Assembly (NCBI GenBank): GCA_030731745.1
Contig: JANQTJ010000015.1
Location: 62,001-126,000 of the forward strand
Direction: 5' to 3'
Length of the DNA: 64,000 nucleotides
DNA from: Flaviramulus sp.
GTDB lineage: Bacteria; Bacteroidota; Bacteroidia; Flavobacteriales; Flavobacteriaceae
The position numbers and the translations under genes are program-made. This document shows positions 37,181-62,062 of the stretch, one piece after another. Every line of letters starts with the position of its first letter. Position 1 is the stretch's first letter. Below the pieces are notes generated by a model, which ran no database searches, was not told where the DNA came from, and saw nothing but the letters and a program-made list of their open reading frames with translations.

Positions 37181-37183
37181 AAC

Positions 37184-37351
37184 ATGTTCGGTTTATTCAA
37201 AAAAAAATCAGAAGTTGATAAACTTCAAAATAAATACAAATCTTTAATGAAAGAATGGCATGCGCTATCTAGTATAAATAGATCTGAAAGTGATAAAAAA
37301 TATGCTGAAGCTGAAGAAATAGCTAAACAAATTGAAAAATTAAAACTTTGA
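37184..37351 (+). CDS. Small protein (Lacal_2735-like), 55 aa
   Basis: MFGLFKKKSEVDKLQNKYKSLMKEWHALSSINRSESDKKYAEAEEIAKQIEKLKL*; too short for the track. Confidence 0.75.
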   Translation: MFGLFKKKSEVDKLQNKYKSLMKEWHALSSINRSESDKKYAEAEEIAKQIEKLKL

Positions 37352-38270: not shown

Positions 38271-38287
38271 AAGTAAAAAACTTATTA

Positions 38288-39595
38288 ATGAAACAACCCA
38301 TTGCTATTTTCTGGTTTCGACGTGATTTAAGATTAGAAGACAATCATGGACTATTTGAAGCTTTATCTGGAAATGAAAAAGTACTTCCTATTTTTATTTT
38401 TGATTCCGATATTTTAGAAAAATTACCAAAAGAAGATGCTAGGGTTACCTTTATTCATCAAATACTGCAAAACATAAATACAAAGCTTAAAAATGAATAT
38501 AATAGTGGTATTTCTATATCACATGGTAAACCTCTAGATGTTTTTAAAGATCTTATCGTAAATTTTAACATTAAAAGTGTTTATACTAATCATGATTACG
38601 AACCATATGCAAGAAAACGAGATTCTGAAATTGAAACTTTTTTAAATGAAAATGGAGTTGTTTTTTCCTCATTTAAAGATCAAGTAATATTTGAAAAGCA
38701 TGATGTCATTAAAAGTGACGGGACTCCTTATTTGGTTTACACACCTTACATGAAGCAATGGAAAAAAATATTTGAAGGTAATCCTTTAAATACATATACT
38801 TCAGAAGAAAAACTTCATAATTTAGTTACTAATATAGAACCACAAAATGTAAATTTAAGTGAGATAGGCTTTGTAAAATCAAATGAAGTCATTAAAGATT
38901 TTACAGTAACACCAAAATTAATACAAACATACGAAGCTACCAGAAACTTTCCTTCCCAAGATAGCACCTCAAGACTAGGACCTCATTTACGTTTTGGTAC
39001 AGTAAGCATAAGGGCTATGGTAAAAAAAGCAATTGCAGAAAAAAATGAAATTTTTTGGAATGAATTAATTTGGAGAGAGTTTTTTACAAATATTTTATGG
39101 CATTTTCCTAATACAAAAAATAAATCTTTTAAACCTCAATATGACCGTATTGAATGGCGAAATGATGAAAAAGAATTTAAGGCTTGGTGTGAAGGCAAAA
39201 CCGGCTATCCTTTAGTAGATGCGGGAATGCGACAATTAAACCAATCAGGATTTATGCATAACCGTGTACGGATGTTAGTTGGAAGTTTTTTATGTAAACA
39301 TTTACTTATTGATTGGCGATGGGGTGAAGCTTATTTTGCTAAAAAACTCCATGATTATGAAATGGCTAGTAATATAGGAAATTGGCAATGGGTAGCAGGC
39401 TGTGGTGTTGATGCAGTACCTTATTTCAGAATTTTTAACCCAACAAGTCAAATTGAAAAATTTGATAAAAATTTAGAATATATCAAAAAGTGGGTTCCAG
39501 ATTTTCAAGAGCTAACATACCCCTCACACATAGTAGACCATAAAATGGCTAGAGAACGTTGTTTAAAGGTCTATAAAAGTGCTTTAAATAGTTGA
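38288..39595 (+). CDS. Deoxyribodipyrimidine photolyase (class I-like)
   Basis: IFWFRRDLRLEDNHGL; GKTGYPLVDAGMRQLNQSGFMHNRVRMLVGSFLCKHLLIDWRWGEAYFAKKLHDYEMASNIGNWQWVAGCGVD. Confidence 0.94.
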   Translation: MKQPIAIFWFRRDLRLEDNHGLFEALSGNEKVLPIFIFDSDILEKLPKEDARVTFIHQILQNINTKLKNEYNSGISISHGKPLDVFKDLIVNFNIKSVYTNHDYEPYARKRDSEIETFLNENGVVFSSFKDQVIFEKHDVIKSDGTPYLVYTPYMKQWKKIFEGNPLNTYTSEEKLHNLVTNIEPQNVNLSEIGFVKSNEVIKDFTVTPKLIQTYEATRNFPSQDSTSRLGPHLRFGTVSIRAMVKKAIAEKNEIFWNELIWREFFTNILWHFPNTKNKSFKPQYDRIEWRNDEKEFKAWCEGKTGYPLVDAGMRQLNQSGFMHNRVRMLVGSFLCKHLLIDWRWGEAYFAKKLHDYEMASNIGNWQWVAGCGVDAVPYFRIFNPTSQIEKFDKNLEYIKKWVPDFQELTYPSHIVDHKMARERCLKVYKSALNS

Positions 39596-43827: not shown

Positions 43828-46638
43828 TTGAAACCGACTAAAAACTCATTACAAGTATATATTCTTTTTTTATTTACTAGCATACTAATTTCTCAAGAAC
43901 GCCCACCAATTGAGATTTTTTCACCTAAAGATTATGGAGGAGAAACCCAAAATTGGTCTATTACTCAATCAAAAGAAAAATACATCTATGTTGCAAATAA
44001 TAAAGGTCTATTGGAATATAATGGCTCTAATTGGCAACTGTATTTATCTCCAAATGAAACAATAATTCGATCTGTTAAAGAGATTGATGATCTAATTTAT
44101 ACTGGTGCCAATAGTGAATTTGGATATTGGAAACGTAATGATCAAGGCATATTATTTTACACATCCCTATCTAAAACTCTTGATATTGAATTTCTTGAAG
44201 ATGAAGAATTTTGGAATATTGTTAATATTGATGATTATATATTATTTCAATCACTAAAAAGAATATACATCTACAATAAATCAAATAATTCTTATTCTAA
44301 AATAGATTCTGAAACTATAATCTATAAAATATTTAAAGTTGATGAAATTATCTATTTCCAAAAAACTAAGGATGGTGTTTATAAAATAGAAAATGGAGAA
44401 GCAAAATTAGTTTCAAACAACCTCATTTTACAAAATAACAGACTTGTTAATGTTTTTAATAAAGGTGATAATCTTTTAATTGAAACCGAAAATAATGGTT
44501 TTTACATATTAGAAAATGATTTACTTAAAAAATGGGAAATAAGTGCCAATGAAAAACTTTCTGAAATAAGTGTTTTTAGAAGTATTCAATTAAAAGATAG
44601 AAGTTTTATTTTAGGAACAAGGTCTAATGGTGTATTTCATTTAACAGAAGATGGCGTTATAGATTACAATTTAGATATTATTCATGGCTTGAGTAACAAC
44701 ACAGTTCATGGTGTTTTTGAAGATGCAGAAAACAATATTTGGCTAGCTTTAGAAAACGGTATTAACTGTATAAATATTAAGTCGCCTTTTAGAATATATA
44801 CTGATAAAGAGGGTAAAATAGGCACCGTTTACGCTTCAATAGTTCATAATAACAATTTATACTTAGGAACAAATCAAGGCTTATTCTATAAAGAGCTAGG
44901 CTTAAATGAAGACTTTAAAATAGTTGAAAATATTCAAGAAGCAGTTTGGTGTTTAGTTAATATAGAAGGTGAATTGTTTTGCGGTCATGACACTGGAACA
45001 TCTATAGTGAAAAATAATAAATCTGAAAAAATTGCAGGTACACAGCAAGGCACTTGGTCTATAAAACCAATAGAAGGGAGAAAAGATTTGCTTTTGCAAG
45101 GAAGCTATAATGGGTTATATGTTTTACAAAAAACAAATGATAAATGGCTATTTAGAAATAAAATTAAAGGATTTGATAGATCTAGTAAATTTTTTGAGTT
45201 TTTCAATAATTACATTTTTGTAAGCCATGAGTATAAAGGGGTTTTTAAAATTAAAATGGATAAAGATTTTAATACAGCTATAACTGTTGAAAAAAATTCA
45301 TCAATCAATAATGAAATTAATTCTAGTATAATTAAATATAATGATCAATTACTTTATGCTTATAAAGAAGGAATTTACAAATATGATAGTATCAAAAATG
45401 ATTTTTTAAGAGACACGTTTTTAAGTCAACTATTTAAAAAAGAAGAATACACCTCTGGTAAACTTTTATTCAATGAAAAAGCAAATACACTCTGGAGTTT
45501 TTCTGAAAAAGAGCTAAATTATTTATCTCTAGGAAAACTTAGCAATACACCAAAAATTAATAAAATACCTTTTTCTAAATCTTTACCTAGAGGGCTTACT
45601 GGTTATGAAAACATCTCAAATATTACAAATAAAAAATATTTAATAGGAACATCTAATGGTTTCATTCTTTTAGACTTAGACAAACAACAAAATAAAAACT
45701 ATAATATAAAAATAAATTCAATACTGACTCATAGCATAAGTTCACCTACACATATCATAAATAAAACAAGTAAAGGCTACTTTGAGAATAAAGAAAATAA
45801 TATTGAATTCTATTTTAGTGTACCAGAATTTGAAAAATATTTAGATACAGAATTTCAATATAAATTAGAAGGCATTTACGATAATTGGAGCGATTGGTCT
45901 GCAAATTCTTCAACATTATTTGAAAATCTACCATATGGAGACTATGAGTTTAAAATAAGAGCTAAAATTGGAAATACTATTTCAAATAATATAGCATCTT
46001 ATAATTTTAATATTAAAAGACCTTGGTATTTATCAAATTTGATGATAATAATTTATATTCTATCAATTTTACTTTTCTCATTATTAATGCACAATATTTA
46101 TAAAAGATATTATAAGAAACAACGTGAAAAATTATTGCAAAAAACTGTAAGAGAGTTAGAATTGAAAGAATTAGAAAACAAACAGCAACTTATGCGATTT
46201 AACAATGATAAACTCAGACAGGATATTGAAAGCAAAAATAGAGAATTAGGCATTTCAACAATGAGCTTAATAAAAAAGAATGAGTTTCTAAATACCATAA
46301 AAAAAGAATTGCAAAATATAGAAGATGGAAAAAACATCAAAAAGGTTATTAAAATTATTGATAAAAATTTAAACAATAATGATGACTGGTATTTATTTGA
46401 AGAAGCATTTAACAATGCTGATAAAGATTTCCTCAAAAAGATAAAAAGCTTTCATCCTACCCTAACATCAAACGATCTAAGACTTTGCGCCTATTTAAGA
46501 CTCAATTTATCATCTAAAGAAATAGCACCATTACTTAATATTTCACCAAGAAGTGTCGAGGTTAAACGTTATAGATTAAGAAAAAAGATGGATTTAGCTC
46601 ATGAAGCTAGCTTAACAGATTATATTTTAAAAATATAA
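43828..46638 (+). CDS. Two-component-regulator propeller / triple-tyrosine-motif regulator with C-terminal LuxR-type HTH (no kinase domain)
   Basis: N-terminal propeller repeats (IYVANNKGLLEYNGSNW), YYY-like domain (YKLEGIYDNWSDWS), TM (LMIIIYILSILLFSLLMH), coiled coil, C-terminal LRLNLSSKEIAPLLNISPRSVEVKRYRLRKKM. Confidence 0.88.
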   Translation: MKPTKNSLQVYILFLFTSILISQERPPIEIFSPKDYGGETQNWSITQSKEKYIYVANNKGLLEYNGSNWQLYLSPNETIIRSVKEIDDLIYTGANSEFGYWKRNDQGILFYTSLSKTLDIEFLEDEEFWNIVNIDDYILFQSLKRIYIYNKSNNSYSKIDSETIIYKIFKVDEIIYFQKTKDGVYKIENGEAKLVSNNLILQNNRLVNVFNKGDNLLIETENNGFYILENDLLKKWEISANEKLSEISVFRSIQLKDRSFILGTRSNGVFHLTEDGVIDYNLDIIHGLSNNTVHGVFEDAENNIWLALENGINCINIKSPFRIYTDKEGKIGTVYASIVHNNNLYLGTNQGLFYKELGLNEDFKIVENIQEAVWCLVNIEGELFCGHDTGTSIVKNNKSEKIAGTQQGTWSIKPIEGRKDLLLQGSYNGLYVLQKTNDKWLFRNKIKGFDRSSKFFEFFNNYIFVSHEYKGVFKIKMDKDFNTAITVEKNSSINNEINSSIIKYNDQLLYAYKEGIYKYDSIKNDFLRDTFLSQLFKKEEYTSGKLLFNEKANTLWSFSEKELNYLSLGKLSNTPKINKIPFSKSLPRGLTGYENISNITNKKYLIGTSNGFILLDLDKQQNKNYNIKINSILTHSISSPTHIINKTSKGYFENKENNIEFYFSVPEFEKYLDTEFQYKLEGIYDNWSDWSANSSTLFENLPYGDYEFKIRAKIGNTISNNIASYNFNIKRPWYLSNLMIIIYILSILLFSLLMHNIYKRYYKKQREKLLQKTVRELELKELENKQQLMRFNNDKLRQDIESKNRELGISTMSLIKKNEFLNTIKKELQNIEDGKNIKKVIKIIDKNLNNNDDWYLFEEAFNNADKDFLKKIKSFHPTLTSNDLRLCAYLRLNLSSKEIAPLLNISPRSVEVKRYRLRKKMDLAHEASLTDYILKI

Positions 46639-46948: not shown

Positions 46949-49900
46949 ATGAAAAACAATTTTCTAAGATTAGTACTCTTCTTATTTACTTCACTGGCCT
47001 TTGCTCAGACTGCAAAAGTATCTGTAGTAAATAGTGATGATGGGATGAAATTAGCAGTGAATGGAAAAGATTTTATGATTAATGGTATGAATTGGGATTA
47101 CATTCCAATCGGCACCAATACCATTAATGCTGAATTCTGGAAAAAATCTGATGATATAATCAAAGCAGGGCTTGATTCTGAAATGTCACTTCTTAAAAAC
47201 ATGAATGTAAATGTAATACGCCAGTACACTGGAGTACCAGCAAGATGGATTAAATACATTTACGAAAACTATGGTATTTACACCATGTTAAATCACTCAT
47301 TTGGACGATATGGGTTAACCATAGATGGTGTTTGGACTCCAATAACGTTGTATGACGATCCTAGAACTGCAGAATTTTTAATGACTGAAGTTGAAAACTT
47401 AGTTAAAGAATACAAAAACACGCCTGGACTACTTATGTACCTGTTAGGTAATGAAAATAACTACGGTCTTTTTTGGCAAGGAGCAGAAACTGAAGATTTT
47501 CCAGATGATGAACAAGAAAAAATCTTCATAGGCGAATCGCGTGGAAGACCTATGTATAAGTTAATGAATGAGGCTGCATTAAAAATAAAATCTATTGATG
47601 GGTCTCATCCAGTAGCAATTTGTAATGGTGATACTTTATTTATTGACATCATAGCAGAAGAATGTAAAGATGTTGATATATATGGTACCAACATGTATCG
47701 TGGAGTGTCATTTGGAAATGCATTTCAAGAGGTAAAAGAAAAATTAAATAAACCAATAATGTTTACTGAATTTGGTTCTGATGCTTTTAACGCTATTTCT
47801 AATCAAGAAGACCAAAAAATGCAGGCTTATTATATGGTTAATAACTGGAAAGAGATATACGAAAATGCTGCTGGTTTAGGGAAATCTGACAACTCTATCG
47901 GAGGTTTTACATTTCAGTTTTCTGATGGTTGGTGGAAAGCTGGATTTGATGACAGAAAAGATGCTGATACACAACAAACAGAATCAACTTGGAATGCTGG
48001 TGGTTATACATTAGATGAAGCATACCCTGGGGCTAATAACATGAATGAAGAGTGGTTTGGAATTTGTGCAAAAGGACCAACTAACGAAAGAGGTTTGTAC
48101 GATTTATTCCCAAGAGCAGCTTATTATGCTCTAAAAGAAGCTCATCAATTAAATCCATATGCTGAGGGTATTGATGGTGATTTTGTTAGAAATTATTTTA
48201 AAAACATCTCCTTAATGGAAGCTGTTTTAAAAGGACGAGGTGATAAAGCGGCTTTAATAGGAGAAAGTTCCGGAAAAATTAAACTTAGTAATTTAAGAGC
48301 TGAATTTACAACTTTTAATACAGGAGGGACTTTAATTACTACTCCAGACGCAGTGGATCCTACTAGTCAAACTTATCCAAATGAATTAGGTTTTGATCAT
48401 ATGCAATCTTATTTTATCGGCGTAGAAGGAGCTCCTTCTCCAAATATGAAAGCTAATGTGAATTTTAATATTTTAGGCAATGTTGCAGAAAATCCTATTG
48501 ACGAAATATTTTATGAAAACAGAGGAAGGCGATTTGCTGTAAACACTGATGAAGGTAATGTTGATGTTTTTGATCAAAATAGAGTTCAAATTTATAATGC
48601 AGAATATGAATGGAATACAAAAGAATTTGATTTAAGAGGATTTTACAGAACAGGTCATTATCACTGGGGTTATGAAGGAGATTTCTTTGGATTATATCCA
48701 GAGGCTAATTATGGCCCTAATTTAGATATTTACAATGGTGAGATATTAGGAGCTGAGATAGATGGTAAAGGCGCTTTAGATGGGTTAAAAGCCGCTTTTG
48801 GTCCACAGTTATGGTGGGGAGCTAATCCAGCTATTTTATTAAAATACCGAACAAAAATCGGCAAATATGATGTGACTGGTGTATTCCATGAAGATATCGA
48901 TGATATTGGTGCTGTTGTTACTTCTATCGCTATACCTATGCCAAGAACAAGAAGAGCAACCATACACATCGAAAGAGATTTTGGAAATGTGAATTTTGAA
49001 ATTGGTGGTATTTGGGGTGGTCAACCATTAAACGGAAGAGATTTTCAAATTGCCGAAGGTGGTCCTGGAAATTATGTGATTCTTGAAGATAAAATTCAAT
49101 CAAGAGATAATTGGGGAGCTAAAGCTAAAATCGAATTTTCAAAAGGAAGATTTAACTGGTATGCTCAAGGTGCGGCGATGGGACTTGTTGCTAATGGTGG
49201 TGCAGATGCAACTAGAACATTTACAGGTTGGCATTTAAAAGATAGCGGAAGCGGAAATCAAACAAATTTCTTAACAGGTTTCACATACTTAATAGGAGAT
49301 TTACAAATAGCTCCAAACTTTTTATGGCAAAAACCAATTGTTGGCGCTATACCAAATGATGTACAATCACCAGGAAGACTGAGAAATGTATTTGATGATC
49401 CATTTGCCGTAAGAGCAAATAGAGAAACAACTGCTGGTGAAATTTTATTTAGTTACGACCCAACTCCTGGTACTTGGATGTACGAATGGGATAATGATAG
49501 AGCTGAAGACGCGAAATTTGCAATGAATTTTGGTTTCGTCTTCCGTCATCATCCTACAGCGCAAGATGCTGCGATAGGTTTTTTAAGTAATCGTACGTTG
49601 TTTGCGTTCCCTAATTCAGCGCCAGCTAGAGATTTATGGGAAGCCCATACTAGGATAGTATCTAAAGTACATCCAGATTTAGGTGTTATAGCTAATTTTT
49701 ATGCTGGAAATGGACAGGCTAATGGTAGTGATCCTAGAATGATTCAACGTGTTGGAGGTGATATTAGATTAATTTATAATAAAATCAAACTAACTCATAC
49801 ATTTAAAATTAATGATTGGGGACCATTCGATTATCATAGAGATTTCAACTTAACATATCCAGTGCAATTAATGTTAGATTTATCAACAACACTTGGAAAA

Positions 49901-50098
49901 CCAGATTGGTTTATTTTACCTGGCACTCAAGTTGGTATTCGTGGTACTTGGCGTTCTATGGATCAAAATTCTCCAAGGTTTTCTCCAAATCAAACACCAT
50001 CTGAATTCGCTACATCTCCAACAATTAGTCCAGTAGGATTTCCTAATGGAAGCGAATGGGAAATTAGAACATATGTACATATTAATATTGGAAAATAA
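46949..50098 (+). CDS. GH clan-A (GH2-like TIM barrel) glycosidase with putative C-terminal outer-membrane beta-barrel
   Basis: Signal peptide; LLGNENNYGLFW acid/base-type and MFTEFGSDAF nucleophile-type motifs; about 550 residues of amphipathic beta-strand pattern after the TIM barrel. Confidence 0.78.
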   Translation: MKNNFLRLVLFLFTSLAFAQTAKVSVVNSDDGMKLAVNGKDFMINGMNWDYIPIGTNTINAEFWKKSDDIIKAGLDSEMSLLKNMNVNVIRQYTGVPARWIKYIYENYGIYTMLNHSFGRYGLTIDGVWTPITLYDDPRTAEFLMTEVENLVKEYKNTPGLLMYLLGNENNYGLFWQGAETEDFPDDEQEKIFIGESRGRPMYKLMNEAALKIKSIDGSHPVAICNGDTLFIDIIAEECKDVDIYGTNMYRGVSFGNAFQEVKEKLNKPIMFTEFGSDAFNAISNQEDQKMQAYYMVNNWKEIYENAAGLGKSDNSIGGFTFQFSDGWWKAGFDDRKDADTQQTESTWNAGGYTLDEAYPGANNMNEEWFGICAKGPTNERGLYDLFPRAAYYALKEAHQLNPYAEGIDGDFVRNYFKNISLMEAVLKGRGDKAALIGESSGKIKLSNLRAEFTTFNTGGTLITTPDAVDPTSQTYPNELGFDHMQSYFIGVEGAPSPNMKANVNFNILGNVAENPIDEIFYENRGRRFAVNTDEGNVDVFDQNRVQIYNAEYEWNTKEFDLRGFYRTGHYHWGYEGDFFGLYPEANYGPNLDIYNGEILGAEIDGKGALDGLKAAFGPQLWWGANPAILLKYRTKIGKYDVTGVFHEDIDDIGAVVTSIAIPMPRTRRATIHIERDFGNVNFEIGGIWGGQPLNGRDFQIAEGGPGNYVILEDKIQSRDNWGAKAKIEFSKGRFNWYAQGAAMGLVANGGADATRTFTGWHLKDSGSGNQTNFLTGFTYLIGDLQIAPNFLWQKPIVGAIPNDVQSPGRLRNVFDDPFAVRANRETTAGEILFSYDPTPGTWMYEWDNDRAEDAKFAMNFGFVFRHHPTAQDAAIGFLSNRTLFAFPNSAPARDLWEAHTRIVSKVHPDLGVIANFYAGNGQANGSDPRMIQRVGGDIRLIYNKIKLTHTFKINDWGPFDYHRDFNLTYPVQLMLDLSTTLGKPDWFILPGTQVGIRGTWRSMDQNSPRFSPNQTPSEFATSPTISPVGFPNGSEWEIRTYVHINIGK

Positions 50099-50110: not shown

Positions 50111-51508
50111 ATGAAAAATAGAAAATTAATTTATTCGAAAATCACACTTCTTTTTGGTTTGCTTTTCATAGCGAATACAAGTTGTGAAAGAGAATTATCT
50201 CCACAATCGGGATTAGCAGGTAACTCTACATCAGGAGATGTTTTTATAGATGGCTTTACAGGCGGTTTAGATTATTTCCCGTTTGGCGGATCATACTTAG
50301 ATGCTTTTTCAGTAGATACTGATAATAAATATAGTGGAAGTTCTTCCATGAGATTTGATGTTCCTAATGTTGGAGATCCTGCAGGAGCTTATGCAGGTGC
50401 CATCTTTCGTTTAGAATCTGGTAGAGATTTAACAGGTTATGATGCTTTAACATTTTGGGCTAAAGGCACCAAAGCTGGTTTGATAAATGAAATTGGATTT
50501 GGAACTGATTTTGGAGAAAACAAATATCAAGTTAGTATGTCTCTTCAATTAACTACTAATTGGAGAAAATATGTGATTCCAATTCCAGACGCAACCAAAT
50601 TAATACAAGAAAGAGGTTTGTTTTGGTATGCTGAAGGACCAGAAAACGGAATAGGCTATAGTTTTTGGATTGATGAACTAAAGTTTGAAAAACTAGGAAC
50701 TATTGCACAACCACAACCTGCTATTTCGGATGGTGCTGATAAATCAGAAACAGCTTTTACTGGTGTAGATATAGCAATAACTGGATTAACTCAGACATTT
50801 AATCTGGAATCTGGTGAAAATGTAACTGTAAATGCAGCACCTTCATATTTTAATTTTAAATCTTCAAATGAAGAAGTTGGATTTATAAACGAATCTGGTG
50901 TTGTTACAATTATAGGAGAAGGTACAACAACCATAACAGCATCGTTAGGTGGGGTTTTAGCAAAAGGATCATTAGAACTTTCTTCAAGAGGAGGTTTTGA
51001 TTTAGCACCAATACCGACAAGAGATCCTAGTAAGGTTATTTCTATTTACAGTGATACCTATACAAATGTTCCTGTTGACTTCTTTAATGGATTCTGGGAA
51101 CCTTTTCAAACAACTCAATCTTCTGAGTTTGCGATCGGAGGTAATAACATGATAAATTATACCAATTTCAACTTTGTTGGTAATCAGTTTGCTAATCCTA
51201 CTGTAGATGCAACTCAAAAATCTAATGTACACGTTAATATGTACATTCCAAATAGTGTACCTGCAAACATGGATTTCTTAATAACTCTTGTAGATTTTGG
51301 TCCAGACCAAGCAGATGGTGGTGGTGATGATACTAGACAGCAAGTGTTTTTTGATAAATCTCTTTGGGTTCCTGATACATGGATTACATTAGAATTTCCT
51401 GTCACGATGGATAACAAAAACAATATTGGACTTATTATTTATGAAAACATTAATTTTTCATCACTAAGTAATTGGTATTTAGATAATGTATATTTCTATG
51501 AAGATTAA
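50111..51508 (+). CDS. Carbohydrate-binding lipoprotein with Ig-like (BIG2) segment
   Basis: Lipobox-like IANTSCERE; CBM-like beta sandwich (DALTFWAKGTKAG); ITGLTQTFNLESGENVTVNAAP...GEGTTTITASLGG. Confidence 0.7.
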   Translation: MKNRKLIYSKITLLFGLLFIANTSCERELSPQSGLAGNSTSGDVFIDGFTGGLDYFPFGGSYLDAFSVDTDNKYSGSSSMRFDVPNVGDPAGAYAGAIFRLESGRDLTGYDALTFWAKGTKAGLINEIGFGTDFGENKYQVSMSLQLTTNWRKYVIPIPDATKLIQERGLFWYAEGPENGIGYSFWIDELKFEKLGTIAQPQPAISDGADKSETAFTGVDIAITGLTQTFNLESGENVTVNAAPSYFNFKSSNEEVGFINESGVVTIIGEGTTTITASLGGVLAKGSLELSSRGGFDLAPIPTRDPSKVISIYSDTYTNVPVDFFNGFWEPFQTTQSSEFAIGGNNMINYTNFNFVGNQFANPTVDATQKSNVHVNMYIPNSVPANMDFLITLVDFGPDQADGGGDDTRQQVFFDKSLWVPDTWITLEFPVTMDNKNNIGLIIYENINFSSLSNWYLDNVYFYED

Positions 51509-51538: not shown

Positions 51539-52435
51539 ATGAATTTAAAAAACACAATGATAATGAAAACAAAAATCTTTAAGCAGAACCTATTACATAG
51601 AAATGTAAACTTAATATTTGGGGTTCTTAGTCTTACATTTTTGGTCTTTTTTACCGTTACTAGCTGTTCAACTAGCGAAACACAAACGGTAACTAATTTC
51701 AATACTATTACCATGCAAGATGAATTTGATGTTGAAGGTGCTCCAAATAGTGAAATTTGGACATATGATATTGGTAGAGGTAATAATGGATGGGGTAATA
51801 ATGAATTACAATACTACACTGATAGTTCTGAAAATGTTTCGGTACAAAACGGATACTTAATAATAACTGCACAAAAGGAAGATTTCCAAGGAGCTTCATA
51901 TACGTCGGCAAGAATATTAACTAAAGACTTATTCGAACAGAAATATGGTCGTTTTGAAGCCCGTATTAGATTGCCATGGGGACAAGGTATGTGGCCTGCT
52001 TTCTGGTTATTAGGTGCGAATTCTGATGAAGTTACCTGGCCTGCATGTGGAGAAATAGATATTATGGAAAACCGCGGGCAAGAACCTACATTAATTAATG
52101 GTAGTTTACATGGACCAGGTTATTCAGCTGGAGAAGCTATTACAAAGGCTTATACCTTACAGAATTCTCGTTTTGATACAGATTTCCACATTTTTGGAAT
52201 AGAATGGGGCCCAGGATATATAAACTATTATGTTGATGATGTATTATATAACCAAATTACACCAGAAGATGTAACTGGAGAATGGATTTTTGATGATCAA
52301 CCATTCTATATAATAATGAATGTTGCTGTAGGTGGAAATTATGTGGGTTCACCTAATAACGAAACCGTATTCCCACAAACCATGCTTGTAGATTATGTTC
52401 GTGTTTACAAAGCAGAAATATTTAATAATAACTAA
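51539..52435 (+). CDS. GH16 family glycoside hydrolase (laminarinase-like), lipoprotein
   Basis: Catalytic CGEIDIMENRG; QYYTDSSENVSVQNGYLIITAQKE; C-terminal VDYVRVYK. Confidence 0.93.
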   Translation: MNLKNTMIMKTKIFKQNLLHRNVNLIFGVLSLTFLVFFTVTSCSTSETQTVTNFNTITMQDEFDVEGAPNSEIWTYDIGRGNNGWGNNELQYYTDSSENVSVQNGYLIITAQKEDFQGASYTSARILTKDLFEQKYGRFEARIRLPWGQGMWPAFWLLGANSDEVTWPACGEIDIMENRGQEPTLINGSLHGPGYSAGEAITKAYTLQNSRFDTDFHIFGIEWGPGYINYYVDDVLYNQITPEDVTGEWIFDDQPFYIIMNVAVGGNYVGSPNNETVFPQTMLVDYVRVYKAEIFNNN

Positions 52436-52451
52436 ACAAAAAAATAAGATT

Positions 52452-54413
52452 ATGAAACAATTACTAAAAACAATAAAAATTGTATTCGTTGTTTTTTTAT
52501 CCTTTACCTTTTTAGGGTGTGAGGATGAACAAAATGAATTCCCAAAAGCATTTGCTGAATTTACGTATACAATATCTTACCCAGAAAATCAACAATATGG
52601 TGTGGTGAAATTTATTAACACATCTAGGAACGCATCTCTTTTTGCTTGGTCTTTTGGAGACCAAACAACTTCAACTGAAGTAAATCCTACACACATATAT
52701 CAACCTGGAACTTATTTAGTTTCGCTAGTAGCAAGAAATGTTGCTGGTTCTTTCAGAACATATCAAGACACTATTGTAATTGGAGAAAACAATACTGACG
52801 GTGGCGGTGGAGGTTCTTCTGATTGTACTGCTGAAACATCAGAAAATATAGATCCAGCAAATGGTGATATAAATTGGACTTTCTTAACAAATGCTGTTAC
52901 ACATACATTTGAAGCTTTTGGAAATACTGGAGGCGGAATTGTTGCTAACCCTGTAATTGATGATGTAAATGGAAGTTGTAATGTTCAACAATTTGTAAAA
53001 GCATCAGGATGTGAAACATGGTCTGGTTTAGGTGCAGAATTAGCAACAGCATTAGATTTTACAGCTTCTACAACTAATAAAGTGTTTACTATGAAAGTTT
53101 TAGCCGAAGATCAAGTAGCTGATGTTACTTTAAGATTAGAACGTTTACCTTTCCCAGATACAGATCCCGCAGTTGATAAAGTTGCTAGTATTACGCAAGT
53201 TGGAGCTTGGCAAGAATTAACATTTGATTTCTCAGATGTTACAACAGGAACTTATAAAAGTATGATTCTTTACTTTGAAAGAAATGCTTCTTGTGATGGA
53301 GATATTTATTATTTTGATGATATTAAGCAAGTTGCCGATACCGGAGGTTCTGGTGGCGGAGGTGGAACTACTGTTTGTGTTCCTGAAACTGCTGAATCTA
53401 TTGCAGCTGCAAATTTAAATATTACATTTCAAACAAATACACCAGCAGTTATTGATGATAATGCCTTGTTTACATGGGTAGATAACCCAGATTTTGATAA
53501 TGCAGTAAATACTTCATGTAAAGTTGGTCAAGTAGTAAGAGTAAACAACTCTCCTTATGACAACATTCAAATCGATTTAACTGATAAATTGGATTTTAGT
53601 GTTTCTGAAGGTGTAAAAATTAAAGTTTGGTCGCCAACAGCTAACACTCCTGTGTTATTAAAACTTGAAGAAATTGGAACGCCTGGTAATTTTGTTGAAA
53701 TTCTGCAAACTACTGGTGCTGCAAATACTTGGACAGAATTAACATATAATTTTGAAGCTACAGCTACCCCACAATTCAATAAAATGGTTATTTTCTTTAA
53801 CTTTAATGTAGGAGATGCGAGTACTTATTATTTTGATGATGTTATGGTTTATGGAACACCAAGCGGCGGTGGCGGCGGCGGTGGCGGTACCGGTGGAGGT
53901 TGTACTGGAACTGCAGTAGCAGCAACAGCATTCCCTGTTAATTTTGAAAGTTGTGAATCTTTCTTAGGCACTTTTACAGATAGTGGAAGTATAACAACTT
54001 CGTTAGATAATAACCCGTCAAAAACAGGTATCAACACTTCTGATTTCGTATTAAGAGTAGATAAAGCAGCAGGTTCAAACAGATGGGCTGGTTTTCAAAA
54101 TCCATTCCCAAGTAATTTTGATGCAACTAAAACCTTTAAAGTAAAAATATACTCTACTAAAGCAAATGTTGTGATGAGATTTGAGGTAAATAGTGATCCT
54201 CAACCAAATAGTTCTGGAAACCCAGGGCCACAGTTTGCAACTATTACGCAAGCCAATACTTGGACTGAAGTACAAATTGTATTTACTGGAATACCTGGGA
54301 ACAATACAGGTCTTAATCAGTTTGTAATAAAACCTGACAACCCTGATGGAACGGATGGTCAAACAACACCAACTAGTGAAACCTACTATTTTGATGATAT
54401 CAGACTTGAATAA
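52452..54413 (+). CDS. PKD-domain surface glycan-binding lipoprotein with three CBM-like modules
   Basis: Lipobox FTFLGCEDE; PKD FAWSFGDQTTSTEVNPTHIY; three modules separated by poly-Gly linkers, each ending YYFDD(I/V). Start at 52452 preferred over 52395. Confidence 0.8.
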   Translation: MKQLLKTIKIVFVVFLSFTFLGCEDEQNEFPKAFAEFTYTISYPENQQYGVVKFINTSRNASLFAWSFGDQTTSTEVNPTHIYQPGTYLVSLVARNVAGSFRTYQDTIVIGENNTDGGGGGSSDCTAETSENIDPANGDINWTFLTNAVTHTFEAFGNTGGGIVANPVIDDVNGSCNVQQFVKASGCETWSGLGAELATALDFTASTTNKVFTMKVLAEDQVADVTLRLERLPFPDTDPAVDKVASITQVGAWQELTFDFSDVTTGTYKSMILYFERNASCDGDIYYFDDIKQVADTGGSGGGGGTTVCVPETAESIAAANLNITFQTNTPAVIDDNALFTWVDNPDFDNAVNTSCKVGQVVRVNNSPYDNIQIDLTDKLDFSVSEGVKIKVWSPTANTPVLLKLEEIGTPGNFVEILQTTGAANTWTELTYNFEATATPQFNKMVIFFNFNVGDASTYYFDDVMVYGTPSGGGGGGGGTGGGCTGTAVAATAFPVNFESCESFLGTFTDSGSITTSLDNNPSKTGINTSDFVLRVDKAAGSNRWAGFQNPFPSNFDATKTFKVKIYSTKANVVMRFEVNSDPQPNSSGNPGPQFATITQANTWTEVQIVFTGIPGNNTGLNQFVIKPDNPDGTDGQTTPTSETYYFDDIRLE

Positions 54414-54484: not shown

Positions 54485-54510
54485 CATAAATAATCTGAAC
54501 AATATAGTTG

Positions 54511-57500
54511 ATGAGCAATAAAATTTATAAAGAAGAATCTAAAAACTCAACCAAAGTGAATAATTCTATAAAAGGAGAATTAGTGTCTATAGAAAATGAA
54601 ACCTACTACAAGATTTCTAACTGTGATGAAATGCGTCCGTTTTTCATGAGTATCGTAAGCGACTCTAATCATTGGATGTTTATTTCTAGTAACGGAGGTT
54701 TAACAGCAGGCAGAAAAAATGCAGGGTTTTCATTATTCCCTTATTATACAGATGATAAAATAACAGAGTCTGCTGAAATAACAGGTAGTAAAACGATTTT
54801 CCAAATTCATTACAACGATGAAATTTTAATTTGGGAACCTTTTTCAATTCGTCAAATGGGAATATATGAAGTTAAAAGAAATCTTTATAAAAACACTTAT
54901 GGCAACAAAATCATTTTTGAAGAAATCAATAAAGATTTAGGATTAACTTTTCAATACGAGTGGAACTCAAGTGATCAGTTTGGCTTTGTTAAAAAATCTA
55001 AATTAATAAATAGCTCAAAAGATGTTAAAATCATTACTGTTTTAGATGGTTTACAAAATATAATACCTAATGGCGTTCCAGCAGATACACAAGCTACACA
55101 TAGTAATTTAGTTGATGCTTATAAGCGAAATGAATTAATACCAGCAGTTGGTTTGGGTATATATGCATTAAGTGCTATTATAGTTGATAAAGCAGAACCT
55201 AGTGAGGCTTTAAAAGCCAACACAGTTTGGTCTGCAGGTTTGAAAAACCCTATTTACTTATTATCTTCAATACAATTAGATAACTTCAGAAAGGGTAAAT
55301 CAGTAAAGCAAGAGGTAGATGTTAAGGCTGAAAAAGGTGCTTATTTTATTTCTTCTGAGATTGAACTTAAATCAGATTCTGAAAAAAATTGGATGTTTGT
55401 AGCCAATGTAAATAAATCTATCACTGGCGTAAACGAAGTAGCTGAAATAATTAAAAACACAAATAACATTACTGAAGCTGTTCAAAAAGATATCAATGCT
55501 GGCACAAAAAAATTAATAGAACTAACAGCTGCATCTGATGGTTTACAATTAACTGCTGACGCCTTAATTAATACCCGTCATTTTTCTAACACACTCTTTA
55601 ATATTATGCGTGGTGGTATTTTTGATGATGGATACAATATTGAAAAACAAGACTTTATACAATACATTTCTAAAGCAAATAAATCGTTCTTCTCTAAAAA
55701 AGAGCAACAGCTAAATACGCTCCCCGAAATTTTCACACTTGATTATTTAAAAAACCTTGCGGAAGACGATGTTGATACAAACTTTAAACGTTTATGTTTT
55801 GAATATTTACCTTTAAAATTTAGTAGAAGACATGGGGATCCTAGTAGACCTTGGAATAAATTTTCAATAAATACAAGAAGTGAAATAGATGGCTCTAAGA
55901 TTCTAGATTATGAAGGAAACTGGCGCGATATATTTCAAAACTGGGAAGCATTAGCGCATTCCTATCCAGAATATATTGAAAGTATGATTCATAAGTTTTT
56001 AAATGCTACAACATTTGAAGGCTACAACCCATATAGAGTTACAAAAGATGGTTTTGATTGGGAAATTATCGAAGAAAATGATCCGTGGTCTTACATCGGT
56101 TATTGGGGAGATCATCAAATTATTTACTTATTAAAATTCTTAGAATTTATTGAAAACCACTACCCTAAGCTACTAGAAAAACGTTTCTCTGAAGATATTT
56201 TTGTTTATGCCAATGTCCCTTATAAAATTAAAAGTTACTCTGATACATTAATTAATCCAAAAGACACAATTGATTTTGATTATAAGTTAGATGAAAAAAT
56301 CAATGAGGCTAAACAATTTTTAGGTGCTGATGGTGCTTTATTAACTGATAAGAATTCAGAAATATATAAAGTAAACTTAATAGAAAAATTATTAGCTACG
56401 GTACTTGCAAAAGTATCTAATTTTATTCCTGAAGGTGGTATTTGGTTAAATACACAAAGACCTGAATGGAACGATGCAAACAACGCATTAGTTGGTAACG
56501 GTGTGTCTATGGTTACGTTATGTTACCTAAATCGTTTTTTAAATTTCTTTTACAATGTAGTATCTAAATCTAAAACTAATTCTGTGCAAATTTCTGATGA
56601 GTTAGTGACCTTTTTTAATGAAGTTGTAAAAACATTACAAACCAATAAACATATCCTTTCTGGGCAAGTTTCTAACAAAGACAGAAAAACAGTGCTAGAT
56701 GGCTTAGGCATTGCAGGAAGCAACTACAGAATGACCATTTATAAAGAAGGTTTTACTGCAAAAAAATCTATAATAACAAAGGCTAATATTTTAGATTTCA
56801 TTAAAACCACTAAAGATTATCTACAACATACCATCGATTCAAATAAGCGATCTGATAATATGTACCATGCTTATAATTTAATGACAGTTGAAAATGATAC
56901 TGAGGTATCAATATCTTATTTATCGGAAATGTTGGAGGGCCAAGTAGCAGCATTAAGTGCTGGTTATTTATCTACTAAAGAAGCTCTAGATTTATTAGAT
57001 GGATTAAAAGGTAGCTCGTTATTCAGAGAAGATCAATACAGCTATATTTTATACCCCAATAAAGAATTACCAAGCTTTGAAAAAAAGAACAATATACCTT
57101 CTGAAAAAGTAGAAAAATCAGAATTACTAAAACTATTGGTAAATAACGGAAATGCTCAAATTATAGAAAAAGATGTATTGGGTAATTATCATTTTAATGG
57201 TACGTTTAACAATGCTAATAGTTTAAAACAAGCATTGACTAACCTACCAGAGAAGTACCAATTGTTAGTCGCTAAAGATAAAAATTTATTATTAAATACT
57301 TTTGAAGAAATTTTTGATCATAAATCATTTACAGGTCGTTCTGGAACTTTCTTTGGCTATGAAGGATTAGGTTCTATTTATTGGCACATGGTTTCAAAAT
57401 TATTATTAGCCGTTCAAGAAAATTGTTTGTTAGCAGTAAATAATAATGAAAGTGAGGTAGTAATTGGTAAACTACTAGATCATTATTACGAAATTAGTGC

Positions 57501-57969
57501 AGGAATTGGCGTACATAAATCACCTGAATTGTATGGTGCCTTCCCAACGGATCCTTATTCACATACACCTGCCACAAAAGGAGCTCAACAACCAGGAATG
57601 ACAGGACAAGTAAAAGAAGATTTATTAAGTAGATACGGTGAACTTGGAGTATTTGTTAAAAATGGGATTTTATTTTTCAATCCAAGATTATTAAGAATAC
57701 AAGAGTTTTTGAAAGAAACTACTGTTTTTAATTACACAAACACTAAAAACGAAGTTACTGAAATTGAGTTGGATAAAAACTCATTATGTTTTAGTTATTG
57801 TCAAATTCCGGTCATCTATAAACTTACTGAATCTAATCAAATTCAAGTAGTTTATAATAATGATGATACTAAAACTTTTGATAGTCTAAGTTTAGATGAA
57901 AAAACATCGAAATCAATTTTTGAAAGAAGAGGACAAATAAATAAACTAATCGTTTCTATTAAGAAATAG
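54511..57969 (+). CDS. GH94/GH149-like beta-glucan phosphorylase (cytoplasmic)
   Basis: No signal peptide; NDPWSYIGYWGDHQIIYLLKFLE, GLGIAGSNYRMTIYKEGF, GAFPTDPYSHTPATKGAQQPGMTGQVKED; about 1150 aa. ATG 54511 preferred over TTG 54508. Confidence 0.78.
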   Translation: MSNKIYKEESKNSTKVNNSIKGELVSIENETYYKISNCDEMRPFFMSIVSDSNHWMFISSNGGLTAGRKNAGFSLFPYYTDDKITESAEITGSKTIFQIHYNDEILIWEPFSIRQMGIYEVKRNLYKNTYGNKIIFEEINKDLGLTFQYEWNSSDQFGFVKKSKLINSSKDVKIITVLDGLQNIIPNGVPADTQATHSNLVDAYKRNELIPAVGLGIYALSAIIVDKAEPSEALKANTVWSAGLKNPIYLLSSIQLDNFRKGKSVKQEVDVKAEKGAYFISSEIELKSDSEKNWMFVANVNKSITGVNEVAEIIKNTNNITEAVQKDINAGTKKLIELTAASDGLQLTADALINTRHFSNTLFNIMRGGIFDDGYNIEKQDFIQYISKANKSFFSKKEQQLNTLPEIFTLDYLKNLAEDDVDTNFKRLCFEYLPLKFSRRHGDPSRPWNKFSINTRSEIDGSKILDYEGNWRDIFQNWEALAHSYPEYIESMIHKFLNATTFEGYNPYRVTKDGFDWEIIEENDPWSYIGYWGDHQIIYLLKFLEFIENHYPKLLEKRFSEDIFVYANVPYKIKSYSDTLINPKDTIDFDYKLDEKINEAKQFLGADGALLTDKNSEIYKVNLIEKLLATVLAKVSNFIPEGGIWLNTQRPEWNDANNALVGNGVSMVTLCYLNRFLNFFYNVVSKSKTNSVQISDELVTFFNEVVKTLQTNKHILSGQVSNKDRKTVLDGLGIAGSNYRMTIYKEGFTAKKSIITKANILDFIKTTKDYLQHTIDSNKRSDNMYHAYNLMTVENDTEVSISYLSEMLEGQVAALSAGYLSTKEALDLLDGLKGSSLFREDQYSYILYPNKELPSFEKKNNIPSEKVEKSELLKLLVNNGNAQIIEKDVLGNYHFNGTFNNANSLKQALTNLPEKYQLLVAKDKNLLLNTFEEIFDHKSFTGRSGTFFGYEGLGSIYWHMVSKLLLAVQENCLLAVNNNESEVVIGKLLDHYYEISAGIGVHKSPELYGAFPTDPYSHTPATKGAQQPGMTGQVKEDLLSRYGELGVFVKNGILFFNPRLLRIQEFLKETTVFNYTNTKNEVTEIELDKNSLCFSYCQIPVIYKLTESNQIQVVYNNDDTKTFDSLSLDEKTSKSIFERRGQINKLIVSIKK

Positions 57970-58051: not shown

Positions 58052-59257
58052 GTGAAAACGTTAAAAAATAAAACTGCTCAAGAAATTTTAAATAATCCGG
58101 ATTATTTGGCTATTTCTTATGGTGGATACAGACAAAATTCTAGAAATATCCAACCGACTATTCAAGAGTTAAAAGAGGATATGAAGATTTTATCTGCTAT
58201 GGGCGTTAAAATTTTAAGAACTTATAATGTTCAAGTTCCACTTCCACATGCTTCTAATGTACTGAAGGCTATAAAAGAATTAAAAAATGAAGATCCTAGC
58301 TTTGAAATGTATGTGATGCTGGGCGCATGGATTGATTGCCAAAACGCATGGACAGGACACGTTCCTAATCATGATGTTGAAAGCGAAAACAATGCAGGTG
58401 AGATTGATAGGGCTATTTCATTAGCTAAAGCCCATCCAGATATAGTTAAGATTATTGCTGTAGGAAACGAAGCTATGGTACGTTGGGCTACAAGCTATTT
58501 TGTGCGTCCTAATGTTATTCTTAAATGGGTAAATCATTTACAAAATTTAAAAAAAACTGGTGATCTACCTAAAGATTTATGGATTACTAGCTCTGATGAT
58601 TTTTCATCATGGGGTGCAGGAGATCCAAGTTATCATTGTGAAGATTTAACTAATCTTATTAAGGCAGTAGATTATATATCTATGCATACCTACCCTATGC
58701 ACAACTCTCACTATAATCCTGCCTTTTGGTTAGTTCCTGAAAATGAATATGAACTATCAGATTCTGAAAAAATTGAATCTGTAATGCAAAGAGCTTTAAA
58801 TTTTGCCAAAGACCAATACGAAGCCGTTGTAAAATATGTACAAAGCTTAGGTGTTAATAAACCTGTTCATATTGGTGAAAGTGGTTGGGCATCAATTTCT
58901 AACGAGCATTATGGTGCAAGTGGATCGAAAGCAGCTGATGAATATAAATCAGGAAGGTATTATCAATTGATGAGAGCATGGACTTACAAAGAAAAAATTT
59001 CATGTTTCTATTTTGAAGCCTTTGATGAGCAATGGAAAGATGCTAATAACCCAGAAGGATCTGAAAATCATTTTGGTCTAATTAACCTTATAGGTCAAGC
59101 AAAATATGCTATTTGGGATTTAGTAGATAATGGTGTATTTAATGGTTTAACTAGAAATGGTATAAAAATCACCAAAACTTATAAAGGAGAAAAAAAGAAA
59201 TTACTCTCTGATGTTCTAGTTCCGCCATTACAAAAAGAAGCAACTTTTAATTATTAA
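58052..59257 (+). CDS. GH17-like glycoside hydrolase, predicted cytoplasmic
   Basis: LSAMGVKILRTYNVQ, IIAVGNEAMVRW, KPVHIGESGWAS; GTG start; no signal sequence. Confidence 0.82.
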   Translation: MKTLKNKTAQEILNNPDYLAISYGGYRQNSRNIQPTIQELKEDMKILSAMGVKILRTYNVQVPLPHASNVLKAIKELKNEDPSFEMYVMLGAWIDCQNAWTGHVPNHDVESENNAGEIDRAISLAKAHPDIVKIIAVGNEAMVRWATSYFVRPNVILKWVNHLQNLKKTGDLPKDLWITSSDDFSSWGAGDPSYHCEDLTNLIKAVDYISMHTYPMHNSHYNPAFWLVPENEYELSDSEKIESVMQRALNFAKDQYEAVVKYVQSLGVNKPVHIGESGWASISNEHYGASGSKAADEYKSGRYYQLMRAWTYKEKISCFYFEAFDEQWKDANNPEGSENHFGLINLIGQAKYAIWDLVDNGVFNGLTRNGIKITKTYKGEKKKLLSDVLVPPLQKEATFNY

Positions 59258-59259
59258 TT

Positions 59260-60555
59260 ATGAAAATTTTTTTAAACATTATGAGAAATTGTTTCCTGAT
59301 TTTTTTAATCGGTTTCATTTTTTCTTGTAGTAAAATTAAAAGCAATAATGTGACACCTATTGAAGAAAAAAAAGAAATAACAGCAAAAGATATTTTAGGT
59401 AACTCTAATTACTTAGCCATGTCTTATGGTGGCTACCGAAACGCAAATCATGATATTGAGCCAACTGTAGATGAACTCAAAGACGATATGAGAATTTTAT
59501 CTGCCATTGGTGTAAAAGTACTTCGAACTTACAAAGTACATTTACCTCATGCTTCAAATGTACTTAAGGCAATTTCTGAAATAAAAAAAGAAGATACATC
59601 TTTTGAAATGTACGTGATGTTAGGCGCCTGGATAAATTGTAAAGATGCCTTTACTGATAAAGTACCAGATCATTCACAAGACAATGAATTAAACGCTATA
59701 GAGATTGGTAAAGCTGTATCATTAGCAAACCAATACCCAGATATTGTTAAGGTTATTGCTGTTGGCAATGAAGCTATGGTAACATGGCAAGCACAATACT
59801 ATGTGCAACCATGGATAATTTTAAAATGGGTAAACCATTTACAAAAATTAAAAATGCATAACGAACTACCTAAAGATTTATGGATTACAAGTTCTGATAA
59901 TTTTGCTTCTTGGGGTGGTGGTGATGGCAGTTATCACGTTGAAGATTTAACTAAATTAATAAAAGCTGTAGATTTTATTTCCATGCACACCTACCCTATG
60001 CATGATACCCATTACAATTCTAATTTTTGGGGCGTTTTAAAAGATGAAAATACACTAACTGATATTGAAAAAATTGATGCAGCTATGGTGCGTTCCCTAA
60101 ATTATGCCATATCCCAATATAAATCAGTTTCTAATTACATAAAAAGTATTGGAGTTGATAAACCAATTCATATAGGTGAAACAGGATGGGCTTCTTTTTG
60201 TAATAATTTTTATGGTGCGAATGGCTCCAAAGCTACAGATGAATATAAAGAAGCTAAATTTCATGATTTGATTAGAGACTGGACAAATAAAAATAACATC
60301 TCTTGTTTTTATTTTGAAGGCTTTGATGAACCATGGAAAGGTGGAAATGATCCTGGAGATTCTGAAAAACATTTTGGTCTATTTACTGTTGAAGGTAAAG
60401 CAAAATATGCTTTATGGAATATGGTTGATAGAGGTGTTTTTAATGGATTAACAAGAAATGGAAATCCAATTATAAAAACCTATAATGGAGATAAAAACAC
60501 ATTAATGAATGATGCTTTAGTTCCTTTAACAAAGAAAGAAATAATACTACATTAA
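59260..60555 (+). CDS. GH17-like glycoside hydrolase, lipoprotein
   Basis: Lipobox-like FLIGFIFSCSKI; otherwise a close paralogue of the 58052 protein (VIAVGNEAMVTW, KPIHIGETGWAS). Confidence 0.84.
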   Translation: MKIFLNIMRNCFLIFLIGFIFSCSKIKSNNVTPIEEKKEITAKDILGNSNYLAMSYGGYRNANHDIEPTVDELKDDMRILSAIGVKVLRTYKVHLPHASNVLKAISEIKKEDTSFEMYVMLGAWINCKDAFTDKVPDHSQDNELNAIEIGKAVSLANQYPDIVKVIAVGNEAMVTWQAQYYVQPWIILKWVNHLQKLKMHNELPKDLWITSSDNFASWGGGDGSYHVEDLTKLIKAVDFISMHTYPMHDTHYNSNFWGVLKDENTLTDIEKIDAAMVRSLNYAISQYKSVSNYIKSIGVDKPIHIGETGWASFCNNFYGANGSKATDEYKEAKFHDLIRDWTNKNNISCFYFEGFDEPWKGGNDPGDSEKHFGLFTVEGKAKYALWNMVDRGVFNGLTRNGNPIIKTYNGDKNTLMNDALVPLTKKEIILH

Positions 60556-60574: not shown

Positions 60575-62062
60575 ATGAAAATAATTAAACCTTTTTTTTA
60601 CATTTTTTTAGTTTTCGTGATTATGAATTGTTCTGACAAACAAAACCAATTGAGCGTTGAAATATATGAAACATCTGAAAGCGGAAATAAATTAACAAAA
60701 ATATCAGCTTTCAATATTTCAGAAAATCCAGTTACTATAAAACTAAAACCTGAACAAAAACTTCAAACAATAACAGGTTTTGGAGGTGCTTTTACTGAAT
60801 CATCCGCATTTTTGTTGAATAAATTAAGTAAAGAAAATCGTAAAAAAATTATTAATGCCTATTTTAGTAAAGAAGGTGCACACTACTCTTTAACAAGAAC
60901 ACACATGAATTCCTGTGACTTTTCTTTAAGTAATTATTCTTACACACCTGTAGAAGACGATAAAACTCTTGAGCACTTTAGTATTCACGAGGATAAAGAT
61001 GATTTAATTCCATTTATAAAAGACGCTATGGCAGCCTCTACAGATGGATTTAAAATTTTCGGCTCACCTTGGACAGCTGCTCCATGGATGAAAGATAACA
61101 ATAATTGGGTTGGTGGTAAACTACTACCTGAATATTATGATACTTGGGCCTTGTTTTTCTCAAAATTTGCAGATGCCTACAAAGAAGAAGGTATTAATAT
61201 CTGGGGCTTTACTGTTGAAAATGAACCTTTAGGTAATGGTAATAACTGGGAAAGTATGCATTACACTCCTGATGAAATGACCAATTTTGTTCAAAATTAT
61301 TTAGGCCCAAAATTGGAAGCTGATGGAAAAGGAGATTTAAAAATTTTAGGCTATGATCAAAACAGAGAACACTTAAAAGAATGGGTAGATTCTCAATTTA
61401 AAAATGAAGAAACTTCTAAATATTTTGATGGAACGGCTATTCATTGGTATGCAAGTACTTATGATTATTTTCCTGAAGAATTACAATATGCACATAACAA
61501 AGCGCCTTCTAAACTTTTAATACAATCAGAAGCTTGTATAGATGCAGAAATTCCTGTTTGGCTAGATGATTCTTGGTATTGGAAAAAAGAAGCTACAGAC
61601 TGGGGATGGGACTGGGCACCTGAGGAGGATAAATATTTACACCCTAAGTATGCGCCAGTTAATCGGTATGCGAGAGATATCATTGGGTGTCTTAATAATT
61701 GGGTAGACGGCTGGGTAGACTGGAATATGGTGCTCGATAAAAAAGGTGGTCCAAACTGGTTTAAAAATTGGTGTATTGCACCTGTAATAGTTGATCCTGA
61801 AAATGATGAAGTATATTTTACACCAATTTACTTCACCATGGCACATTTTAGTAAATATATTAGACCAAATGCTAAAGTTATTGGAGTTGAAAATTCAGAT
61901 AAAAATTTAATGGTGACAGCAGCTGAAAATCCTGATGGAAGTACCATTGTTGTGATTTTTAACGAAACCGAAAATAGAAGTAGCATTAATTTGTTACTAA
62001 ATAATAAATCAGTTGAATTTTCTATTAATGCAAAGGCTATTCAAACCGTCATAATTAAATAA
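60575..62062 (+). CDS. GH30 family glycoside hydrolase, lipoprotein
   Basis: TGFGGAFTESSAFLLNKL, GFTVENEPLGNGNNWESM, KLLIQSEACIDAE; lipobox-like FVIMNCSDK. Confidence 0.92.
   Translation: MKIIKPFFYIFLVFVIMNCSDKQNQLSVEIYETSESGNKLTKISAFNISENPVTIKLKPEQKLQTITGFGGAFTESSAFLLNKLSKENRKKIINAYFSKEGAHYSLTRTHMNSCDFSLSNYSYTPVEDDKTLEHFSIHEDKDDLIPFIKDAMAASTDGFKIFGSPWTAAPWMKDNNNWVGGKLLPEYYDTWALFFSKFADAYKEEGINIWGFTVENEPLGNGNNWESMHYTPDEMTNFVQNYLGPKLEADGKGDLKILGYDQNREHLKEWVDSQFKNEETSKYFDGTAIHWYASTYDYFPEELQYAHNKAPSKLLIQSEACIDAEIPVWLDDSWYWKKEATDWGWDWAPEEDKYLHPKYAPVNRYARDIIGCLNNWVDGWVDWNMVLDKKGGPNWFKNWCIAPVIVDPENDEVYFTPIYFTMAHFSKYIRPNAKVIGVENSDKNLMVTAAENPDGSTIVVIFNETENRSSINLLLNNKSVEFSINAKAIQTVIIK

Follow-up and report, generated by a model that had tools for sequence, protein, structure and literature searches.

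Laminarin is among the largest marine algal carbon flows, and SusC/SusD are usually invoked to explain how Bacteroidota take it up. Clan GH-A enzymes, outer membrane barrels and transporter-enzyme fusions (MFS-GH17, PMC6246565) are all known, each separately. The closest solved structures to the enzyme domain analyzed here are those of GH158 (BuGH158, PDB 6PAL, and GH158(Pro), 9ORO), with which the laminarin context is also shared. Residues E137 and E220 of BuGH158 are essential, as determined by mutation, and that enzyme carries an Ig-like domain and no membrane barrel (PMC7157763), whereas the protein described here has a barrel. In the open-access literature, to which the search was limited, no report was found of an enzyme-barrel fusion in polysaccharide loci, i.e. 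of a GH joined to a large outer membrane barrel.

The gene itself appears to have been listed before under other labels. Its locus matches the laminarin locus "variant B" (PMC6298971) and the GH149-GH0-GH17-GH16_3-GH30_1 locus that was expressed in a North Sea bloom (PMC10108472), and in a study of Muricauda (M. lutaonensis) the gene upstream of GH16/GH149 is labeled "GH2" (PMC13188888). From gene order it is inferred that the published "GH2" and "GH0" genes are the same gene as the fusion. In the passages of these sources that were consulted, no barrel is mentioned.

The window is the whole stretch of 64,000 nucleotides of Flaviramulus sp. DNA that was analyzed. The fusion is encoded by one open reading frame without interruption, which spans exactly positions 46949–50098 (Table 1). 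It occurs only once in this assembly. The full-length fusion is present in approximately 40 of 201 sampled Flavobacteriaceae genomes (about 20%) and in approximately 33 of 396 Bacteroidota genomes drawn from many families. When the 121 unique C-terminal halves are aligned, all others show 54–84% identity to the query. The fusion and the neighboring lipoprotein gene, termed h50, constitute a conserved module seen in dozens of genera and are not a one-off. The GH-barrel fusion is thus genuine and conserved, since full-length homologues occur across Flavobacteriaceae and in other Bacteroidota families. A chance fusion of open reading frames or a missed stop codon can be ruled out, as the frame is unbroken in about 120 unique homologues. 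One copy (genome G062, C1:1624682–1627827) lies in overlapping frames that encode residues 1–287 and 285–1049; this may represent a frameshift, an assembly error or a true split. The signal peptide was assigned by eye from the sequence and the homologue alignment and not by a predictor. Homologues display a hydrophobic N-terminus with an FAQ or FSQ end, which meets the criterion for a Sec signal of outer membrane proteins.

Table 1. Coordinates of the fusion gene, its parts and the neighboring genes in the window. Residue numbers are those of the fusion protein.
Feature	Position	Strand	Basis or remark
Reg_prop/Y_Y_Y/LuxR-type regulator	43828..46638	+	Pfam
Whole GH-barrel fusion gene	46949..50098	+	1049 aa; 121 unique full-length sequences
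Sec signal peptide, residues 1–19, FAQ end, without lipobox Cys	46949..47005	+	Sequence reading and alignment
Clan GH-A TIM-barrel catalytic domain, residues 20–405	47006..48163	+	Pfam GH2_C 1e-9; Foldseek; profile match 6pal
Glu169 codon, predicted catalytic acid/base (GNENN)	47453..47455	+	Invariant; aligns with BuGH158 E137
Glu274 codon, predicted nucleophile (TEFG)	47768..47770	+	Invariant; aligns with BuGH158 E220
Two helices, residues 409–441, from enzyme to first strand	48173..48271	+	AlphaFold2; region also in enzyme-only homologues
Predicted 22-stranded outer membrane beta-barrel, residues 444–1048	48278..50092	+	AlphaFold2, topology, Foldseek
h50 lipoprotein, predicted surface glycan-binding protein	50111..51508	+	Lipobox Cys, Ig-like and CBM11/CBM30-like domains
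GH16 lipoprotein (beta-glucanase)	51539..52435	+	Pfam 3.5e-25
PKD-domain lipoprotein, repeated CBM-like modules	52395..54413	+	Pfam; sequence reading
GH149 beta-1,3-glucan phosphorylase, without signal peptide	54508..57969	+	NCBIfam GH149_beta_1_3, 1798 bits
GH17 gene without lipoprotein signal	58052..59257	+	Pfam GH17 below cut-off, E 3.8e-5
GH17 gene with lipoprotein signal	59260..60555	+	Pfam GH17 above cut-off
GH30 lipoprotein	60575..62062	+	Pfam 6.4e-73
MFS (GPH-type) sugar transporter, GH17-like tail, open at window end	62102..64000	+	TIGR00792 6.7e-55

The original prediction had described the N-terminal region as a clan-A TIM barrel with GNENN and TEFGSDAF motifs and with no GH2 jelly roll ahead of it. 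AlphaFold2 and Foldseek agree with this, the motifs being found at residues 167–171 and 273–280. The only Pfam match above cut-off in the whole fusion protein is GH2_C (PF02836) at residues 34–292. The N-terminal jelly-roll and Ig-like domains of GH2 were found neither by Pfam nor in the AlphaFold2 model, where the TIM barrel begins directly after the signal peptide. GH2 TIM-barrel enzymes such as beta-galactosidase and beta-glucuronidase share the PF02836 match, but the fusion is without their N-terminal sandwich domains, and membership in GH2 is rejected on account of the missing accessory domains.

Closest to the enzyme half by Foldseek are the GH158 endo-beta-1,3-glucanases (9oro, E-value = 9.6e-12; BuGH158 6pal, E-value = 3.2e-11). 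A profile built from 33 relatives and compared with PDB sequences gives the same two proteins (6pal, E-value = 5.2e-8; 9oro, E-value = 4.7e-5). The relationship is not significant in pairwise comparison (phmmer E-value = 0.61, 12–15% identity) and emerges only with the profile, at 5.2e-8, and with structure, at about 1e-11. The criteria for clan GH-A are met: a (beta/alpha)8 fold, a Glu pair following strands 4 and 7, and an Asn preceding the acid/base. Loss of the catalytic Glu pair in alignment would have counted against the proposed enzyme, however Glu169 and Glu274 are unchanged in 46 homologues and also in homologues that consist of the enzyme only. Because of the GH158 structure and profile matches, the Glu pair and the absence of GH2 accessory domains, the enzyme half is a GH158-like member of clan GH-A and not of GH2; its activity is inferred.

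The C-terminal region, previously proposed to be a porin-type barrel of about 550 residues, is predicted to start near residue 444 and to comprise approximately 605 residues. AlphaFold2 was run on the whole protein (mean pLDDT 73, pTM 0.49) and on residues 400–1049 with 121 sequences (pLDDT 80.9, pTM 0.77), and both runs display a porin-like pattern of strands, turns and loops. How the enzyme is placed with respect to the barrel is undetermined because the pTM of the full-length model is only 0.49. The model of the barrel region has 22 long antiparallel strands at residues 444–1047. Loops that follow the odd-numbered strands are 19, 36, 58, 18, 29, 26, 30, 28, 7, 11 and 29 residues long, and the turns after even-numbered strands are 2, 3, 2, 2, 2, 2, 21, 2, 2 and 10 residues. 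An even number of amphipathic antiparallel strands, joined by mostly short turns on one side and long loops on the other, is the layout of outer membrane barrels. With the short turns on the periplasmic side and the long loops outside, the N- and C-termini of the predicted barrel are both periplasmic, and on this topology the enzyme domain should sit in the periplasm.

There is no Pfam match in the last 600 residues and no sequence relative of the barrel region in the PDB. Glycosidases often bear C-terminal beta-sandwich modules, and with Pfam silent either way the region could be read as a chain of soluble beta-sandwich or CBM domains and not as a membrane barrel, a result that would have overturned the original prediction. 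This reading is hardly tenable and is rejected on topology and Foldseek matches. Short turns and long loops alternate over all 22 strands, and the strands are amphipathic: the hydrophobic fraction is 0.68 on one face and 0.28 on the other, a difference of 0.40 compared with 0.19 (SD 0.14) for random windows of the GH domain. With the barrel domain alone as query, all 50 of the Foldseek matches listed are outer membrane barrels (best E-value = 8.7e-9). The best among those listed are BtuB3G3 (BtuB3 together with the lipoprotein BtuG3), MOMP, PirA, ZnuD and a BenF-like protein, and OprD-type porins, LptD and the Mtr barrel are also included. The TM-scores are at most about 0.4 with an rmsd of 12–19 Å; because these scores are low the strand number is taken as 22 plus or minus 2 (perhaps 20–24), and the pore diameter is uncertain. 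The fusion, its conservation and the membrane-barrel topology are well supported by prediction and conservation.

The domain order of the fusion agrees with that of type V secretion, i.e. signal peptide, enzyme, helices and C-terminal barrel, and there are two helices ahead of strand 1. The barrel may thus secrete the enzyme or anchor it on the cell surface in the manner of EstA (type Va) instead of serving as a sugar channel. However classical autotransporter barrels have 12 strands and the present one about 22, so that the type Va criterion is not met and such display is less likely. Among the Foldseek matches listed there are TonB transporters, porins and LptD but no autotransporter. The helical stretch cannot be regarded as a barrel-specific linker since enzyme-only homologues have it too. 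In addition, Bacteroidota can show enzymes on the surface as lipoproteins, and several of the enzyme-only forms appear to be displayed in this way. Autotransporter-like display is therefore given only a small chance, and an outer membrane channel with a periplasmic enzyme remains the preferred reading.

Other properties of the barrel bear on how such a channel might work. No Pfam match to a TonB plug (PF07715) or to SusC is found in the fusion protein and the criterion for a TonB-dependent transporter, an N-terminal plug with a TonB box, is not met; without a plug domain an open 22-strand pore would need another gate. Conservation in the barrel alignment is 0.75 for the outer loops and 0.76 for the strands. 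That the loops are conserved as much as the strands suggests a specific ligand or partner. The C-terminus reads HINIGK or QIDIRN and does not have the terminal aromatic residue of the beta-signal. This aromatic signal is a proteobacterial consensus that is not strictly required in Bacteroidota, and its absence is for this reason not treated as defining.

The gene order in the window is regulator, fusion, h50, GH16, PKD protein, GH149, two GH17, GH30 and MFS. The presence of GH16, GH17, GH30 and GH149 together with an MFS transporter meets the criterion for a laminarin utilization locus, and the beta-1,3-glucan setting that had been suggested for the enzyme is substantiated by these neighbors. 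GH149 is found in 90 and GH16 in 99 of 102 fused loci. In a MAG named Formosa sp. Hel1_33_131 the fusion adjoins GH16. Laminarin induces the laminarin loci of Formosa sp. Hel1_33_131 (PMC6246565). The open reading frame at the end of the window resembles the Formosa FbGH17b MFS-GH17 protein and would be a second transporter-enzyme fusion of the same locus; its GH17-like tail was recognized by sequence reading and by cross-matches between MFS and GH17. Elsewhere in the window, at 30805–39595, three photolyase/cryptochrome-type genes (30805, 32327 and 38288) are located within 9 kb.

The h50 protein displays an invariant lipobox Cys followed by an acidic stretch, and has Ig-like (Big_2) and CBM11/CBM30-like matches. 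Its gene is directly downstream of the fusion, on the same strand and less than 200 bases away, in 112 of the 113 fused loci that are non-identical and extend far enough downstream. The exception is the locus of genome G336, which has no h50 but encodes, upstream, a CBM-like protein bearing a T9SS sorting tail. None of ten enzyme-only loci contains h50 (two of these, L067 and L069, run up to a contig edge or nearly so). A search with the barrel profile in 396 Bacteroidota genomes never detected the barrel without the enzyme, apart from broken fragments or fragments at contig edges. By analogy with SusC and SusD, to which they are unrelated in sequence, the barrel and h50 appear to be gained and lost jointly.

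Several loci (L059, L061–L067) encode the same enzyme without a fusion partner, either as a lipoprotein or as a secreted protein. In the GH-domain tree the fused proteins do not form one clade; enzyme-only forms are nested among them and at least four label changes are forced. The tree thus does not back one clean origin of the fusion. Because of the nesting, repeated loss of the barrel and h50 fits better than repeated gain, although this rests on a rough tree of sequences with long branches. In addition, the GH-A domain is fused to GH16 in a 685 aa protein (L060:4382–6436, minus strand), near which GH149, a GH17-type gene and a further GH16 gene are located. Distant lipoprotein relatives of the enzyme of approximately 340 aa are present in GH149/GH17/GH30 loci (L190–L194, L197), which suggests an unclassified clan GH-A laminarin family.

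SusC had been reported missing from the locus, and this is correct for the entire window: no TonB plug is found, and elsewhere on the contig the closest matches to a plug domain lie about 75 kb and 137 kb from the fusion gene. With no tandem susC/susD at the locus the criterion for a canonical SusCD-type PUL is not met. Of 99 fused loci for which 5 kb or more of upstream DNA was covered, 17 have SusC/D as detected by an iterated profile, and the majority are without SusC/SusD nearby. The Pfam SusD model gave no match within 15 kb of the fusion in 16 genomes scored as negative. In genome G336, whose completeness is given as 100%, the fusion is part of a GH149/GH30/MFS locus, and the model has no match anywhere in the genome. 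The 17 loci show that the barrel is not a simple SusC replacement in every species, and in these loci it cannot be the sole path of uptake. A simple replacement of SusC/D is further weakened by enzyme-only loci (L061, L062 and L063) that have neither barrel nor SusC/D within the DNA fetched.

These loci also bear on the possibility that the barrel is mainly an anchor, which keeps the glucanase on the periplasmic side of the outer membrane beside a separate SusC/D importer and conducts little sugar. SusD is present elsewhere in many of the other genomes, and the enzyme occurs without a barrel in loci that contain SusC/D (L059 and L064), both of which agree with an anchor, as do the 17 fused loci. 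However a lipid anchor is much cheaper, and several enzyme-only forms appear to have one. The conservation of the outer loops is unexpected for a mere anchor, h50 is a near-obligate neighbor, and in G336 SusD is not matched. In loci that contain SusC/D as well, the barrel could serve purely as an anchor, but as a general explanation this is considered unlikely.

It seems somewhat probable that the fusion is an outer membrane channel for laminarin oligosaccharides to which a periplasmic glucanase is tethered, and that h50 is its glycan-binding partner on the surface, the pore and the hydrolysis being inferred. The enzyme-porin of the original prediction, which would trim oligosaccharides and let them in, is likewise an inference. 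The protein would be a barrel of approximately 22 strands in the outer membrane whose N-terminal extension is a periplasmic, GH158-related clan GH-A beta-glucanase. From its family, the GH16 lipoprotein would cleave laminarin outside the cell. The h50 protein, judging from its conserved adjacency and CBM-like domains, may hold the glucan above the long conserved loops of the barrel, which would pass oligosaccharides over the outer membrane. At the periplasmic mouth the tethered enzyme would trim or rearrange the oligosaccharides on exit and in this way block back-diffusion. GH30 and GH17 would then complete debranching and cleavage, the MFS protein would import short sugars and the cytoplasmic GH149 would phosphorolyse them (inferred from the families; PMC6246565, PMC5827456).

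Computation supports the fusion and its conservation, a barrel topology in which both ends are periplasmic, the catalytic pair, the gene context and the near-obligate lipoprotein neighbor. There are no experimental data for sugar conduction by the barrel, for action of the enzyme at its periplasmic mouth, for glucan binding by h50 or for hydrolysis, and these are inferred. A more far-reaching proposal, which is put forward as doubtful, is that of a new importer class: a plug-less barrel of approximately 22 strands with its own Ig/CBM surface lipoprotein, where an enzyme at the periplasmic mouth acts as a gate in place of the TonB plug, chain cutting makes uptake one-way, and the whole is able to substitute for SusC/SusD.

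A widespread enzyme-barrel with a near-obligate lipoprotein, in loci that are mostly without SusC/SusD, points to a second route of laminarin uptake. PUL finders keyed to susCD would miss loci of the fusion type. The barrel belongs to a family without a sequence relative in Pfam or the PDB, and its gene carries just a GH2 or GH0 label in the published loci. If the pore function, which has not been shown, is true, this would be a new way to couple glycan uptake and digestion.

Compared with known systems, SusC/SusD and BtuB/BtuG of Bacteroidota likewise pair a barrel of about 22 strands with a surface lipoprotein from the adjacent gene, and the best Foldseek match is BtuB3G3. The fusion differs in having an N-terminal enzyme and no TonB plug, and its partner is an Ig/CBM lipoprotein and not SusD or BtuG. 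Porins of the OprD/Occ type, the sugar porin ScrY and MOMP share the barrel fold, but they have 16–18 strands, no enzyme and no detectable sequence relationship. The MFS-GH17 protein FbGH17b of Formosa is also a transporter-enzyme fusion of laminarin loci (PMC6246565). However FbGH17b is a helical carrier of the inner membrane with the enzyme at its C-terminal end, whereas the present fusion is predicted to be an outer membrane barrel with the enzyme at its N-terminal end.
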